A stretch of 36,782 bases of DNA from Candidatus Dormiibacterota bacterium (GTDB lineage: Bacteria; Vulcanimicrobiota; Vulcanimicrobiia; Vulcanimicrobiales; Vulcanimicrobiaceae), in NCBI GenBank assembly GCA_035532835.1, contig DATKQG010000031.1, forward strand, positions 1-36,782, read 5' to 3'. Position 1 is the first letter of the stretch. Every line of letters starts with the position of its first letter. Below, piece by piece: positions 29,611 through 36,412 of the stretch. Made by a program: the position numbers and the translations under genes. Under the pieces are notes generated by a model that did not search any database, was not told the origin of the DNA, and saw only the letters and a program-made list of their open reading frames with translations.

Positions 29611-30252
29611 GTGCGGCGGTCCGACTCCTGGATATGGCTAATGCCGGCGCTCGCATGGACGACGGCGCTCGTTGCTCTATGGTTTCTTTTAAGCGTGTTG
29701 ATCGACCGCCGAAACGCGTTGCGCGAGGGCGTTTCCGCGGTTTCGTTTGCGGAGATCGTTGCGGTGGGGGTTCTCGCGCTTGCGGGGGCGTTGCTGGCTC
29801 CCCCTTCCGAACGGATCGCGGTGGGCCTAGCTTTAGCCGGCATCGGCATCGCGGCGTGCGGCGACGTTCGCCATGGGTACCTGTGGGAAGAAATTACCGT
29901 GCCCACGCTCTTTGCCGTACTCGCAGCTAGCGCGTATGCCGGTATCGCGCCGAACGCCGCTGCCGGCATCGTCGCGCTCGGCGGCATCGCGTTGGCGATC
30001 TATTTCGGCGGGCAACTGCTCGGCAAAGAACCCGGATTCGGCGATATCGTTCCTACGGCCATCATCGGCGCTGCCGTGGGCCCCGTGCCCGGGCTCGCGG
30101 CTTTGGCGATCGCGTGCGCCGGATTCGTCATCGCGGCTCTGATCCTGGGGCGGCGGTTCGGCATTGCCTTGCCGTTCGGCCCAGCTATCGCGGCTGCGAT
30201 CCTGATCGGTGCCGCAGCCGCGTCATGGTTGCCCGCCATCGCCGGACGCTGA
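29611..30252 (+). CDS. A24-type prepilin peptidase-like membrane protein
   Basis: A 213-residue polytopic membrane protein with about seven hydrophobic segments. It carries both aspartates of type IV prepilin peptidases: Asp85 in CGDVRHGYLWEEI (first conserved region) and Asp145 in GFGDIVP (the GxGD motif). It is shorter than PilD and lacks the cytoplasmic zinc/methyltransferase domain, like TadV/CpaA. The start is taken as the GTG at 29611; an ATG at 29641 is possible. It is on the opposite strand from the pilus operon and its 3' end overlaps that of the DUF192 gene by 30 bases. It could process the Flp pilin or pseudopilins encoded elsewhere. Confidence 0.72.
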   Translation: MRRSDSWIWLMPALAWTTALVALWFLLSVLIDRRNALREGVSAVSFAEIVAVGVLALAGALLAPPSERIAVGLALAGIGIAACGDVRHGYLWEEITVPTLFAVLAASAYAGIAPNAAAGIVALGGIALAIYFGGQLLGKEPGFGDIVPTAIIGAAVGPVPGLAALAIACAGFVIAALILGRRFGIALPFGPAIAAAILIGAAAASWLPAIAGR

Positions 30253-30601: not shown

Positions 30602-31198
30602 CTAACCCCCGAACGCGAGCGCGGCGACGACGGTCGCGCCGACGAGATAGGGTGCCATCTGAACGGTCGCGTGCCGCCGCAGTCCCCATTGTATGAAAGC
30701 CAGGAGCAGTCCCGCGGCGGAAAAAGCGACGACTGCGGGAAACAGTCCAAGCAGCGACGCCCCTAAGGCCGCAACGCGCACGTCGCTCCAGGACATGCCG
30801 GCGCCCTTTGTCATGAGGGCGACGCTTGCAAACGGCACGGAAACCAGCAACGCCGCGAGCGGTACCGCATATGCGTGCTGCAGGAGCGCTAGAACGCAGA
30901 TGCACGCCAGCGGGATCAGCGAAAGCCAAGGCGGCGTCCAATGGATGCGAACGTCGCACCGTACGAGCGCAACCAAAGCGACGACGATGAAACTCAGTGC
31001 CAACAGATGTAGCGGGTTCGTCTCGCGCAGCCCGAATTCGGCACCGGCGATCGCGCACGCCGGCACCACGAGCAGCGGCCATACGTCACCAAAACGATCG
31101 CCGTGCCAACGCTGGATGAGGACGTTCGCAAGCGCGTAGCCGAACCACCCGGAAGATGCAAACATCAGCGCGCCCACGAGGGCTAAGCTCCCGTTCAT
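30602..31198 (-). CDS. second A24-like membrane protein in the Tad operon
   Basis: A 198-residue hydrophobic protein with about six to seven membrane segments. It resembles a diverged prepilin peptidase: Asp82 in RCDVRIHWTPPWLSL sits like the first catalytic aspartate, and Asp139 in GAGMSWSDVRVAALGASLLG sits like the GxGD aspartate, with Ser138 replacing the preceding Gly. Whether it is active is open. Its ATG overlaps the TadC stop by four bases, so it belongs to the pilus operon. It could instead be a membrane assembly factor that kept only the fold. Confidence 0.6.
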   Translation of the reverse strand: MNGSLALVGALMFASSGWFGYALANVLIQRWHGDRFGDVWPLLVVPACAIAGAEFGLRETNPLHLLALSFIVVALVALVRCDVRIHWTPPWLSLIPLACICVLALLQHAYAVPLAALLVSVPFASVALMTKGAGMSWSDVRVAALGASLLGLFPAVVAFSAAGLLLAFIQWGLRRHATVQMAPYLVGATVVAALAFGG

Positions 31199-32061
31199 TT
31201 CGCCCAGCTCACGAACTGCGGAAGCAGTTCCGCCGCAACCGAGCCGAAGATGATCGTGAACAGCGCGGGCAGTAAGAACAGAGCCATGGGAAAGACCATT
31301 TTGATGGGCAGCTTCGCGGCCTGCTCTTCAACCGCCATGACGCGTTCGTTCCGGACGTCGATCGAGAGTTCGTTGAGAAGCGTTGAGATGTTCGCACCGA
31401 GCTTTTCGGCTTGCGTAATCGCCGTGATGGTGGCCGTTAGCTGCGGTTGACTGACGCGCATCGCTACCGCGCGCAATGCGTCGCCGTGGCTGCGCCCGAG
31501 GCGGATCTGCGAGAGGCATTCCTTGATTTCGTCCCCCAGCGCGCCGGGCGCTACCGCCACGGCATACCCTAAGGCCTGGTTGAGCGCGATGCCGGCTTGC
31601 ACGGTCGTTGCGACCATGTCGAGAAAATCGGGGAGCGACCGTTGTACTTCTTCCTTACGTTTGGCGATGGCTTGATTGAGAGCCATAAACGGGAGATACC
31701 CGCCGACGATCGCCGGGATAAGCGGTATCAGGAGATACGCCGATTCGAACGGATGCAGAAAGAATAGCGGCAGCAAGCCGACCGCGATGCCTGCGATGAG
31801 GCCGCCTCCAACTCGCGCGCCCATTTGCGCGGGCGTTGTCGTGTACCAGCCCGCTTCCATCAACTGTCGTTGCAATTGCGAGCGGCCGTCGTCCCCGAAG
31901 ATTTTCTCCATGGCGGCAAAGCGTTCGCGCGCCGGGCCCGAGATGTTGCGAGACCTGATATGCTCGAGTTGCTCCGAAAGCGGACTTTTTTGCGGTGTTA
32001 ACGAGACGACGAAGAGGCCGATCGTTATCGCAACGCACACAGCGATGATGCCGAGCAGCAC
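31195..32061 (-). CDS. tadC: Tad pilus inner-membrane platform protein TadC
   Basis: A 288-residue type II secretion F-domain protein. An N-terminal membrane segment (residues 1-22), a pair of helices near 85-130, a cytoplasmic GspF domain (about 150-250: RSLPDFLDMVATTVQAGIAL, IRLGRSHGDALRAVAMR, LGANISTLLNELS) and C-terminal helices (LPIKMVFPMALFLLPALFTII) give the usual TadC layout. With TadB it forms the platform for pilus assembly by the TadA ATPase. It starts two bases after the TadB stop, so it is co-translated. Confidence 0.92.
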   Translation of the reverse strand: MLLGIIAVCVAITIGLFVVSLTPQKSPLSEQLEHIRSRNISGPARERFAAMEKIFGDDGRSQLQRQLMEAGWYTTTPAQMGARVGGGLIAGIAVGLLPLFFLHPFESAYLLIPLIPAIVGGYLPFMALNQAIAKRKEEVQRSLPDFLDMVATTVQAGIALNQALGYAVAVAPGALGDEIKECLSQIRLGRSHGDALRAVAMRVSQPQLTATITAITQAEKLGANISTLLNELSIDVRNERVMAVEEQAAKLPIKMVFPMALFLLPALFTIIFGSVAAELLPQFVSWAK

Positions 32062-32063
32062 GA

Positions 32064-32927
32064 TTACACGTTGACTTTCAGCATCTTATTCAACGAATAG
32101 ATCGCCATGAGTTCGAGTGCCACGGCTACGGCGAGCACGGCGTGGCCGATCAGCGTGCTCATCAGGGCTTTCCCCATCGGCGGCTCCATGACCAGAACGA
32201 AGAAACCCACCCCGACGGGAAGCGCCTCGAGAACCAGGGCGCCGATCCGTCCCTCCGCCGTCAGCGCGGAGATTTTTCGCTGGATTTGACGCCGTTCTTT
32301 AATCGTTTCGGCGAGATGATCGAGAATCAATGAGAGGCTGCCGCCGGTTTGGCGCTGCACCCGAATCACGCGAGCGAGCATCAACGTTTCGTTGCCCGCC
32401 ATCCGTTCGGCGAGCGAATCGAGCGCATCGGGCATAGAGACGCCGACGCGGGTCTGGGTAACGACGCGGCGGAATTCGAGGCGTGCCGGGTCCGTCATCT
32501 CCTCGATGATGTGCGCCATCGCTTGGGGCAGGCTTAAACCGATCCGAACGCCCCCGGACATCAAGCGCAACGCCATCTCGAGTTGGTCCAGGAAGCGGGA
32601 GCGACGCTGCGCGACGCGCCTCTTTATCCAAAATGAGGCCGCGTAAAAAACCGCAGCTTCAAACAGCGGCAACGCGAGCAGCTCTGGCACGAGGCTCAGG
32701 TGCGCTACGAGAACGGTGAAGAACCAGAGCAGGGCGCCGGTGGCGAAGATCGCCGTAGCCACGACGTCTACCGGCCGGCCGATACCCGCCAGTTCTAAGA
32801 GGGATGCGGCTTTAGTGACGCGTGGATGTTCGCGCGCTATCATGCCGTTCACGACGATATAGCACGCGATCGTTCCGCCGAAGGCTAGAAACACTCCGAT
32901 AAACGTGGACGTGAGCGCTGCTACCAC
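32064..32927 (-). CDS. tadB: Tad pilus inner-membrane platform protein TadB
   Basis: A 287-residue type II secretion F-domain protein. The N-terminal segment (1-30) is hydrophobic, a second pair of membrane helices lies at about 55-105, the GspF domain follows (FLDQLEMALRLMSGGVRIG, RVGVSMPDALDSLAERM, RQTGGSLSLILDHLAETI), and the end is hydrophobic (VGFFVLVMEPP, AVAVALELMAIY). Its start overlaps the end of the fused TadZ-TadA gene by seven bases. Order and spacing are as in other tad loci. Confidence 0.92.
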   Translation of the reverse strand: MVAALTSTFIGVFLAFGGTIACYIVVNGMIAREHPRVTKAASLLELAGIGRPVDVVATAIFATGALLWFFTVLVAHLSLVPELLALPLFEAAVFYAASFWIKRRVAQRRSRFLDQLEMALRLMSGGVRIGLSLPQAMAHIIEEMTDPARLEFRRVVTQTRVGVSMPDALDSLAERMAGNETLMLARVIRVQRQTGGSLSLILDHLAETIKERRQIQRKISALTAEGRIGALVLEALPVGVGFFVLVMEPPMGKALMSTLIGHAVLAVAVALELMAIYSLNKMLKVNV

Positions 32928-35023
32928 GCGGTTGCGTCCTGGGCCATCGTCGAGAGTTGACGGATGTCGTATTCGATACCGTGCTCGTCGAAACGGGTGA
33001 TTGCATACGGCTGGACGCCCGTGTATTGGAAGTCACCGCTGACCGTACCGTCGAGATCTAATCCGTGTTGGTTGAACTTGACGATATCCTGAAGCGTGAC
33101 GACGTCGCCTTCCATGCCGACGACTTCGGTAATGGCGACGATCTTGCGGGACCCGTCGCGCAGGCGCGTCGTCTGGATCACCAGGTCGATCGCGCTCGCG
33201 ATCTGCTCGCGAATCGCGCGGACCGGCAGATCGAATCCCGCCATCATCACCAGAATCTCAAGGCGCGATATCGAATCGCGCGGCGAGTTGGCGTGCAACG
33301 TGGTGAGCGAACCGTCGTGGCCCGTGTTCATGGCCTGAAGCATGTCGAGCGCTTCGGCGCCGCGACATTCGCCGACAACGATGCGGTCCGGACGCATGCG
33401 TAATGCGTTGCGGACGAGGTCGCGAATTTTCACCTCGCCGTAGCCTTCGATATTCGGCGGGCGCGATTCGAGACGTACGACGTGCGGTTTTCCGAGCAAG
33501 AGCTCCGCCGCATCCTCAATGGTGACGATGCGGTCGCCGTCCGGAATAAAGTTCGACATGATGTTCAGGAGCGTCGTTTTGCCGGACCCGGTGCCGCCCG
33601 AGACGAGGATGTTCATTCGGGATTCGACGCAAGCGCGCAGGAAATCGGCCATTTGTTCGGTCAGCGCGCCGAGTCGTAACAGGTCGGGAATCCCCATGCG
33701 ATGCTTGCCGAAGCGCCGAATCGTGAGCACGCCGCCGTCGAGCGCTAGCGGCGCGATGATCGCATTGACGCGCGACCCGTCGGGTAGACGCGCGTCGACT
33801 AGCGGGGAGGCCTCGTCGACTCGACGCCCGAGCGGGGTGATAATACGATCGATCGTTTGGCGCAGCTGGCCTTCGCTTGAGAAACGGACGTTGGTGAGGA
33901 CGAGTCTGCCCTTGCGCTCCGCGTAGACGATGCTTGGACCGTTCACCATGATCTCGGTGATCGAGTCGTCCTGTAGAAGATCCTCGAGCGGCCCTAATCC
34001 CAGCGCCTCGTCTAGGACTTCTTGACGCAGCTGCGTCGACTCCTCGGGAGTCAAGTTTTTCCGATCGGCGATGATCTCCGTAACGAGATCTTCGATGACT
34101 TTTTTCATTTCGGACTGAGAACGCGTGCTCGTTTTTAGGGAGTCGATGCGTTTGCCGAGTTCGGCGTGGATATCCGTTTTGAGAATCGCGCGCCGTTCGG
34201 CCACAACGTCGCGCCTCGGATCTTCGGCGGGCGCCTGGAGATCGAAAGGCTGGCGTTCCCCGCCGGCGCTGCGAGTCGCCTCGCCGTTCGCGGAGATGTC
34301 CGGCATGGCGTTGGCACGGCGAATCGTCCGTCGCTCGCCGAGCGAGGCATGCGTCGCGGACACGACCGAATCGGCCCGCGGTTCCTCCGGCAAGGCGAGC
34401 AAGGCGCGGCTCAGATCGTCGATGGATTTGCGATACGTCCGCTCCGACGACGGCGGAATCTGCGCGAGAACCGGAATGCCGAGGTTGCGCTCGATCTCGG
34501 CCGGCGTTACGTCCAGACGGCCCGAATGCCACTCTAATACAGCGAAAATGCGGTCTTTGGGGAAATTGAAGCGGATCATCGAATTGAGCATCGCTCGCGC
34601 GCCGGTGATCCCGAGCAGGGTCGGGGGCGTAACGAGTAAGTATCTCGTCGCGCGCATCATCAGCGGGCGAGTAGCGGCTGCAAACGGCTGCGTTGCATCG
34701 ACGAACACCATCGCATAGCCGACGTCCAGCGTCTTAGCCAGCGCTTCGCTCACCTCTGCGTTCACGGCCAGCGCCGCATCGAAGCTCTCGCTCATTTCGA
34801 TCGTCATCACACCGTCGACTTTGAGCATGGAAACGGGGTGTTCGCCTCGGGCGAGATCTAACTCGTCGGTGCACTTGGCGAGCACCGCTAGGCTGCGACG
34901 CCCGGCAAAGTCCGCGTCGATCGCGGCCGACGGCAGCGTTCCCGAGCTCATTTTCGCGAGCTCCCAGGTGAGCGTCGTTGCCCCGCTGCCGCCCTTGGAA
35001 CCGACCACCGCGATCCAACTCAC
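32921..35023 (-). CDS. fused TadZ/CpaE-like and TadA/CpaF ATPase
   Basis: A 700-residue protein joining two normally separate Tad proteins. Residues 1-215 form a MinD-like domain with a deviant Walker A (GSKGGSGATT, Lys10), AIDADFAGRR and VFVDATQPFAAATRP, matching TadZ/CpaE, which localises the pilus machine. A charged low-complexity linker spans about 215-290. The rest is a full secretion ATPase: LEDLLQDDSITEIMVNGPS, DARLPDGSRVNAIIAPLA, Walker A GGTGSGKTT (Lys482), an Asp-box region IEDAAELLL, and Walker B/His-box blocks RIVVGECRGAEALDML and GSLTTLHANS. It starts at GTG overlapping the cpaB stop by four bases. The frame is continuous through the linker, with no internal stop. The usual order cpaE-cpaF is thus preserved as domains. 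Confidence 0.9.
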   Translation of the reverse strand: MSWIAVVGSKGGSGATTLTWELAKMSSGTLPSAAIDADFAGRRSLAVLAKCTDELDLARGEHPVSMLKVDGVMTIEMSESFDAALAVNAEVSEALAKTLDVGYAMVFVDATQPFAAATRPLMMRATRYLLVTPPTLLGITGARAMLNSMIRFNFPKDRIFAVLEWHSGRLDVTPAEIERNLGIPVLAQIPPSSERTYRKSIDDLSRALLALPEEPRADSVVSATHASLGERRTIRRANAMPDISANGEATRSAGGERQPFDLQAPAEDPRRDVVAERRAILKTDIHAELGKRIDSLKTSTRSQSEMKKVIEDLVTEIIADRKNLTPEESTQLRQEVLDEALGLGPLEDLLQDDSITEIMVNGPSIVYAERKGRLVLTNVRFSSEGQLRQTIDRIITPLGRRVDEASPLVDARLPDGSRVNAIIAPLALDGGVLTIRRFGKHRMGIPDLLRLGALTEQMADFLRACVESRMNILVSGGTGSGKTTLLNIMSNFIPDGDRIVTIEDAAELLLGKPHVVRLESRPPNIEGYGEVKIRDLVRNALRMRPDRIVVGECRGAEALDMLQAMNTGHDGSLTTLHANSPRDSISRLEILVMMAGFDLPVRAIREQIASAIDLVIQTTRLRDGSRKIVAITEVVGMEGDVVTLQDIVKFNQHGLDLDGTVSGDFQYTGVQPYAITRFDEHGIEYDIRQLSTMAQDATAW

Positions 35024-35880
35024 GAACGCGGGCCGTCCATGACCGTGCTGCCGTCGATGACGGTCACGCCGTTGATGGTGGGGCCGCCGGCTATCGTAGG
35101 CCTCGGCGCCGACGCAAACGCCGGAATGAACGCTCGGGCGGGCGCTGCGGCCGCGGGCACGTAGCCGCGCGAGTAACCCGCGCCGTCGAAGACGAGGCGC
35201 TGGGTCGGTTCCGACCCGATCGGTTCTTTCGGTGAGCGCAACGTGAGCCGGAGAACGGCGTTTTGATCGGCCGTCATGAGCGTATCAGCCTGCGCCGGGG
35301 TTACCGCCAGCGTAACGGTCGACGCGCTCTGCGCAACCGGCGAAGGTGTTGCGCCCGCGGTTTCGAGGGCGATGCCCATGGCGAGCACGAGAATGCCGCG
35401 CAGAATGGTCGCGGCCGGCTGAACGCTATTGCCGATGCGGGGACCTTGTGCGAGCACGTCCACGCGATCGCCGGGTTGGATGAGCCCGGAGACATCCTTC
35501 ACCGGATCGACGCTGATGCTCATCGCGCGCTGCCCGGGTTTGAGCCGTACCGAAAGCCCGACGTCGGCCGGCGTTCCGATTTTTGAGGCCGTAAGCAGCG
35601 AGCCGGCCGGCATACCGATCAGCGCTAACTGCCCGTTGATCATCTTCGGATCGGTGAGGACATCCGGATCGACCTTGCTGCGCGGGCGCGTTTCGACGCT
35701 AAACATTGCTGCGGTAATCGGAATGCGCGCCGGAATATTCTGGTTGGCGACCAGCACTCTGGTCATCAGGGCTTCGGGCGAATTCGCCTGACGGAACGAG
35801 TTTAAGAAAATCAGGACGAGCGCGGCGCTGCCGAGAGCGAACACGATTGCCGCAATGATGGTGATTCTGCGGACGTTCAT
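35020..35880 (-). CDS. cpaB: Flp pilus assembly protein CpaB/RcpC
   Basis: A 286-residue periplasmic protein with one N-terminal membrane anchor (residues 7-30). A SAF-like domain follows (VLVANQNIPARIPITAAMF, GSLLTASKIG), then the RcpC/CpaB region (LKPGQRAMSISVDPVKDVSG, LIQPGDRVDVLAQG, VTLAVTPAQADTLMTADQ). The C-terminal 60 residues are Ala/Pro-rich and end in INGVTVIDGSTVMDG. CpaB normally works with the secretin CpaC, but no secretin gene is in the window. It lies four bases after the TadV-like gene. Confidence 0.9.
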   Translation of the reverse strand: MNVRRITIIAAIVFALGSAALVLIFLNSFRQANSPEALMTRVLVANQNIPARIPITAAMFSVETRPRSKVDPDVLTDPKMINGQLALIGMPAGSLLTASKIGTPADVGLSVRLKPGQRAMSISVDPVKDVSGLIQPGDRVDVLAQGPRIGNSVQPAATILRGILVLAMGIALETAGATPSPVAQSASTVTLAVTPAQADTLMTADQNAVLRLTLRSPKEPIGSEPTQRLVFDGAGYSRGYVPAAAAPARAFIPAFASAPRPTIAGGPTINGVTVIDGSTVMDGPRS

Positions 35881-35884
35881 CGTT

Positions 35885-36412
35885 TTACAGCCTCAATGCC
35901 GGGATGGCGGTCATCGCTAATGCGGTGAGAGAGGCGCCGCCGAATATGGCGACCCCATAGGGAATTTTGGCCGTAGTGAAAGGCAACGACCTCGGCACGA
36001 CGCCGACGAGTAACGGATGCAGCGTGCTGCCGACCGATTGAAACGATCGGCGTAGGCTACCCGAACGCCATGCGACGAAGAGAGCCAACAGTCCACCCGC
36101 AAACATCGTGTATAAAATGAATTGCCAAAAATAGTGATAGGACACCAGGGCGCTGCATGCGACGATCATCTTGACGTCGCCGCCGCGCAACAGCCCGAAT
36201 GCGAAAAGCGGAAGGCTCGCGGCAAGGACGCCGATCATCACCAGCAGCGCGATCGCTCCGGGTATCGGCCCCTGTGCGGCGTAGAGCACGAAAGCCAGGG
36301 CTGCCAGCGAATAGCTGAGCCAATTCGAAATTCTGCCCGTGCTGAGATCGGAGATCGCCGCCGCCGCGGTAGCGACGAGCAGAATAACTGGAATGAATTG
36401 CATGATGTGCAT
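35885..36412 (-). CDS. tadV: TadV/CpaA prepilin peptidase
   Basis: A 175-residue membrane-embedded A24 aspartic peptidase that removes the leader of Flp pilin. The catalytic aspartates are Asp22 in ISDLSTGRISNWLSY and Asp79 in LLRGGDVKM; both fit the family consensus. It has about four to five membrane segments and no zinc/methyltransferase domain, as usual for TadV. The start is the ATG at 36412; a second ATG at 36403 would shorten it by three residues. It follows the pilin gene with a short gap containing a hairpin. Confidence 0.9.
   Translation of the reverse strand: MHIMQFIPVILLVATAAAAISDLSTGRISNWLSYSLAALAFVLYAAQGPIPGAIALLVMIGVLAASLPLFAFGLLRGGDVKMIVACSALVSYHYFWQFILYTMFAGGLLALFVAWRSGSLRRSFQSVGSTLHPLLVGVVPRSLPFTTAKIPYGVAIFGGASLTALAMTAIPALRL

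Follow-up and report, generated by a model that had tools for sequence, protein, structure and literature searches.

A single gene joins a TadZ-like ParA domain to a TadA motor in a bacterial Tad pilus locus

The ATPase TadA, or CpaF, works as a hexamer, and it drives both the extension and the retraction of Tad (type IVc) pili. A survey published in 2025 sorts 292 CpaF orthologues into three classes by their N-terminus, which has either no extension, a disordered region (IDR), or an FHA domain followed by an IDR; there is no class with a ParA domain (PMC12019362). Truncation of the IDR lowers pilus dynamics while ATPase activity is retained (PMC12019362), and removal of the disordered region of Caulobacter CpaF leaves phage infection unaffected (PMC11300603). 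The partner protein TadZ, or CpaE, is tied to localisation in the studied systems, and it encircles CpaF in situ (PMC13170226, PMC6668835). In a 2026 in-situ model, six CpaE dimers (twelve CpaE) are fitted around the CpaF hexamer; in Caulobacter, the dimers are proposed to contact one another through their receiver domains and to bind the membrane by a C-terminal amphipathic helix (PMC13170226). We found no description of a fusion of TadZ to TadA, or of CpaE to CpaF, in the literature that we searched, which did not include two 2012 papers on TadZ (Xu; Perez-Cheeks). Sequence databases, on the other hand, will contain such proteins.

Here we analyse one such fusion, which lies in a draft genome of the GTDB order Vulcanimicrobiales (hereafter, the order). 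We call the stretch of DNA analysed the window; it is one whole contig of 36,782 bases, and Table 1 gives the coordinates of its Tad genes and of the domains of the fusion. The original prediction had proposed an uninterrupted frame of 700 residues, naming no strand, that joins a TadZ-like to a TadA-like ATPase and fixes their ratio at one to one. A single intact gene on the minus strand bears this out. The frame is open from GTG to TAG, and the stop or frameshift in the linker that would have divided it is found neither there nor anywhere else in the 700 codons, nor in intact single-frame homologues across the order. The plus strand of the same region has many stops. Pfam assigns CbiA (ParA/MinD) to residues 4-192 with an E-value of 1.5e-5, and T2SSE to residues 341-619 with an E-value of 1.9e-68. 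The secretion-ATPase Walker A expected at Lys482 is present, in GGTGSGKTT, and Lys10 of the N-terminal half lies in SKGGSGATT.

Table 1. Tad genes in the window and domains of the fusion protein, in the direction of transcription.
Feature	Position	Strand	Description	Evidence
tadV prepilin peptidase (Peptidase_A24)	35885..36412	-		Pfam
cpaB/rcpC	35020..35880	-	overlaps fusion-gene start by 4 nt	TIGR03177, 158 bits (cut-off 71)
tadZ::tadA fusion gene	32921..35023	-	700 aa, GTG start, TAG stop	ORF, Pfam, homologues, selection
TadZ-like ParA/MinD-type domain	34388..35023	-	residues 1-212	Pfam CbiA, AF2 model, fold match, motif counts
Variable disordered linker	34181..34387	-	residues 213-281	length variation in 22 relatives, pLDDT, internal-start scan
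Predicted three-helix bundle (3HB/NTD1 of CpaF)	34019..34180	-	residues 282-335	phmmer match and model helices
TadA N-terminal domain (NTD2)	33701..34018	-	residues 336-441	Pfam and CpaF comparison
TadA RecA-like ATPase domain	33104..33700	-	residues 442-640	Walker A GGTGSGKTT (Lys482)
tadB, platform protein (T2SSF)	32064..32927	-	overlaps fusion gene by 7 nt	Pfam
tadC, platform protein (T2SSF)	31195..32061	-		Pfam
Conserved membrane protein after tadC	30602..31198	-		weak Peptidase_A24 similarity, E 0.022

The gene order tadV-cpaB-[tadZ::tadA]-tadB-tadC is kept in all eight related loci that we compared, from eight genera. Relatives with longer contigs have genes for a secretin, TadE, a TadG-like protein and the Flp pilin nearby; as the window is a whole contig, the remainder of this Tad locus falls outside it. 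The membrane protein that follows tadC occupies the same place in seven of the eight related loci, and is possibly a second prepilin peptidase. Further along, on the plus strand (29611-30252), there is a multi-pass membrane protein with a prepilin-peptidase-like GFGD motif and no Pfam match.

The fusion is the sole Tad-type TadA and the sole TadZ-like protein that we found in its genome. There is no stand-alone tadZ among the ParA/MinD-like genes that we looked at, which are a MinCDE cluster, a ParA beside ParB, and others that lie outside any tad locus. In four well-assembled relatives, no stand-alone match scores like the fused ParA domains. The MinCDE cluster of the genome (contig C96, L129:628-3614) is arranged minC-minD-minD-minE and has two differing adjacent MinD genes, of 263 and 290 aa; paired MinD matches also occur in four relatives.

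The C-terminal part of the protein, residues 282-700, is a complete TadA/CpaF motor. The phmmer match to Caulobacter CpaF chains spans all of it, and residues 309-700 match the solved Caulobacter CpaF (8rjf) with an E-value of 2.3e-121, leaving FlaI (1e-38) and VirB11 (1e-31) far behind. It shares with TadA/CpaF (8rjf, 9e24) the three-helix bundle, the N-terminal domain and a RecA-like ATPase that has all the catalytic motifs, as well as the company of tadB and tadC in the operon. The Walker A (Lys482), Glu503, Glu552, His569 and His577 are invariant in 22 relatives. The best NCBIfam match is the TadA model TIGR03819 (TadA family conjugal transfer-associated ATPase), at 340 bits against a cut-off of 373; because this is a narrow hypothetical-equivalog model, we file the protein under CpaF on the evidence above and not under TIGR03819.

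It is at the N-terminus that this motor departs from the described ones. Where Caulobacter CpaF has a disordered region of 79 residues, the fusion has, beyond its linker, a folded ParA domain of about 212 residues. A similar arrangement is that of class III CpaF (FHA-IDR-CpaF, mainly from betaproteobacteria), which likewise consists of a folded domain, a disordered linker and the CpaF core, but in which the folded domain is the phosphopeptide-binding FHA (PMC12019362). With an extension made of a ParA domain and a disordered linker, the fusion fits none of the classes I-III of that survey (PMC12019362).

For the ParA domain alone, the AF2 model has a pLDDT of 92.8 and the ParA/MinD fold. Its closest fold match is 3ea0, with a Z-score of 22.6, which is tied with MinD at about 22. 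A single-sequence search of the PDB with the domain gives weak matches, with MinD first (1g3q, E 0.017) and 3ea0 also among them; a profile built from 78 of these domains recovers 3ea0 (4.5e-46), MinD/FleN and 3fkq, which is the solved TadZ of E. rectale (4.6e-16). Plasmid sequences gave no match to residues 1-219 of the fusion protein. In a tree of ParA domains, the fused domain falls among stand-alone TadZ proteins and is split from the MinD pair of its own organism with a support of 100. Its neighbours are lysine-less TadZ proteins of Acidobacteriota, Planctomycetota and others, joined with a support of 83 and a long branch, and its exact position among TadZ proteins is poorly supported.

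Among 23 fused ParA domains of the order, the signature lysine (Lys10), Asp36, Asp38 and Asp109 are invariant, and position 15 of the P-loop is Ala in 14, Thr in 4, Ser in 3 and Val in 2, and never Lys. The second of the two lysines that characterise the deviant Walker A of MinD is thus replaced in every one of them. The MinD-like deviant Walker A of the original prediction is correct as to Lys10, but the P-loop deviates twice, Ala15 replacing the P-loop lysine. By comparison, 30 of 45 stand-alone TadZ proteins have Lys or Arg in the P-loop.

The ParA half shares with TadZ/CpaE (E. rectale TadZ 3fkq, Caulobacter CpaE) the ParA/MinD fold, the deviant Walker A with its signature lysine, the acidic residues and the site in the Tad locus directly before tadA, here fused to it between cpaB and tadB. 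It differs in lacking the P-loop lysine, in not being a separate protein, and in having no N-terminal receiver (REC-like) domain. There is no room for a receiver, since the ParA domain starts immediately: Walker A occupies residues 9-17 and nothing precedes it. Of five stand-alone TadZ proteins scanned as controls, three have a Response_reg match, and in the other two about 130-150 residues at that place are unassigned. The identification of the N-terminal domain as TadZ-like stands by fold, tree position and genomic place, with the qualification that two features of the family are missing. As it is in a single frame with TadA, we class the protein as TadZ-derived, and probably TadZ-like in its working, but not as a TadZ protein.

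The linker, which had been described as charged, does exist, but it is better characterised as a low-complexity segment rich in A, R, P, S and G. Its length varies from 44 to 94 aa in 22 relatives, and it is predicted to be disordered, with pLDDT values of 33-39 across most of residues 221-270; its end adjoins the three-helix bundle that opens the CpaF core. It contains no conserved internal start, and none of its start codons is preceded by a Shine-Dalgarno motif. An amphipathic helix comparable to the C-terminal one of TadZ/CpaE was not seen, as a scan of the linker found nothing consistent; this is a weak test, because the tails of the organism's own MinD proteins also scored only moderately. 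The AF2 prediction for the full-length protein has low confidence in the ATPase domain (pLDDT about 26-39 for residues 500-570) and so gives no readable interface between the ParA and TadA parts.

Of the 103 genomes of the order in our census, 67 match the fusion strongly. There are 69 intact single-frame copies in 59 of these genomes, and the other eight have only copies that are cut by contig ends or NN gaps. No unfused or split tadZ-tadA pair was found in the census, and full-length single-frame homologues with about 50-97% identity occur throughout the family and the order. Relative to the nearest homologue (97% identical), dN/dS is 0.057 for the ParA domain, 0.077 for the linker and 0.013 for the TadA core, and both halves of the fusion are under purifying selection. 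Seven genomes have apparent TadA-only or ParA-only copies, all of which end at contig ends, and the broken copies in three more carry NN gaps and are not real splits. These gaps are two bases long and lie within the TadA part (about residues 531-590) in drafts of different genera, probably from scaffolding across a conserved or repeated stretch. Three genomes carry three fused copies each, and four carry two each, at different loci, which indicates duplication or transfer of the fusion as a whole. One relative (G019, L035:9011-9736, minus strand) also has a stand-alone ParA-only paralogue of 241 aa whose gene shares 4 nt with the start of the fusion; it is a tandem partial duplication, and its product might dimerise with the fused domain.

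How widespread the fusion is can be answered in part: it is in all Tad loci sampled in the order and in at least three other lineages. From a scan of bacterial and archaeal genomes we took the best 80 TadA relatives, so that the counts among them are not frequencies. In 69 of these 80 we found no fusion, and mostly a separate tadZ just upstream. As tadZ is a separate gene directly upstream of tadA in most of the other phyla sampled, the fusion unites ordinary neighbours. The remaining 11 are true fusions, from Bdellovibrionota, Omnitrophota, WOR-3 and one bin labelled 'Deltaproteobacteria' that falls inside the Bdellovibrionota clade. They too encode a ParA domain, a linker and TadA as one reading frame, and those scanned likewise have no receiver match; the fused domains of these lineages differ from those of the order in retaining Lys or Arg at the P-loop lysine position (10/10 aligned). 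Long single tblastn matches in other phyla, at at least four loci, turned out to be neighbouring tadZ and tadA genes that share a frame but are divided by a stop codon, and at least two distant matches are in conjugation loci (TrbB/VirB11-type), not Tad loci.

The fused TadA parts of the order form one clade with a support of 100, and so do their ParA domains. In free trees of both domains, the other fusions are placed away from those of the order, which suggests several origins of the fusion as opposed to one old event. When all fusions are held together, AU tests give p-values of 0.67 for TadA and 0.51 for ParA; as a single origin is not rejected, we make no claim for one origin or several.

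We think that the fusion is probably a Tad pilus motor with a receiver-less ParA domain of the TadZ/CpaE type tethered to its N-terminus, where it does TadZ's docking. The TadA parts would assemble into the usual hexamer at the inner-membrane platform (TadB/TadC), and there drive the extension and retraction of the pilus. Since it is a single protein, the machine by construction has six ParA and six TadA parts, and the six tethered ParA domains would be placed around the ring, most simply as three nucleotide-bound dimers, and would dock the motor and hold it at the assembly site. That the ParA half positions the motor we infer from the separate TadZ/CpaE proteins, which are tied to localisation in the studied systems. 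The missing P-loop lysine makes nucleotide binding by the ParA half uncertain, and it also makes a scaffold held by nucleotide likelier than a cycling ATPase; if it binds nucleotide, as it probably does, it would be as a slow scaffold and not as a fast-cycling enzyme. The disordered linker would replace the N-terminal disordered region of Caulobacter CpaF, so that the ring could turn over without release of the ParA domains. The features behind the twelve-CpaE ring are missing here, so the ParA parts must be held in another way, which the tether could supply.

Other explanations can be proposed. That the window is a single contig from a draft genome, and that three relatives have NN gaps inside the gene, could raise the suspicion of an assembly or gene-calling artefact. 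The same frame is present in a relative assembled as a single contig and in dozens of independent drafts, and this rules an artefact out; the fusion is confirmed as a real and conserved natural single gene. The gene could still encode a precursor. A linker that is long, poorly conserved and disordered might be cleaved, or internal initiation might yield a separate TadA, either of which would return the ordinary separate TadZ and TadA. The linker has no conserved internal start, however, and none with a Shine-Dalgarno motif; and if being separate were needed we would expect a split gene somewhere in the order, where we found none. We regard a precursor as improbable.

The remaining alternatives concern the ParA half. 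One is that it is a newly recruited MinD or FlhG and not TadZ, as might be proposed from the single-sequence search that ranks MinD first and from the tied fold scores of MinD and 3ea0. But the genome's own MinCDE keeps both lysines, the operon place is that of TadZ, and in the ParA tree the fused domain lies apart from the organism's own MinD and together with lysine-less TadZ (by a long branch), all of which leave very little likelihood to a MinD or FlhG. A more serious contender, which we still find unlikely, is that the ParA half regulates the motor, braking or gating TadA according to its nucleotide state or by touching the platform, and has no positioning role. A P-loop lysine that is always missing and a receiver that is lost would suit a regulator, and the N-terminal additions of CpaF do differ between lineages (IDR, FHA-IDR), with truncation of the IDR cutting dynamics and not ATPase activity (PMC12019362). 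In contrast, the kinship to TadZ, and the fact that the fusion fills the only TadZ slot of its genome, point to TadZ's localisation-linked role.

For the docked and tethered motor that we favour, the fusion bears on how TadZ/CpaE contacts the motor, on their ratio, and on the need for an ATPase cycle. It fixes a ratio of one to one, where the current in-situ model has two to one (PMC13170226). We give about even chances to the stronger proposal that this is a fourth architecture of Tad motors, with an obligate 6:6 ratio of TadZ to TadA on one ring and with neither receiver nor P-loop lysine in the ParA half. The fusion extends the published three-class scheme of CpaF by one architecture. With the receiver and the P-loop lysine stripped and the ratio fixed, it is a natural demonstration of what evolution can dispense with. 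If these pili are functional, then neither the ring of twelve CpaE joined by receiver-receiver contacts, as proposed for Caulobacter, nor ATP hydrolysis by the ParA protein would be a general requirement of Tad systems.
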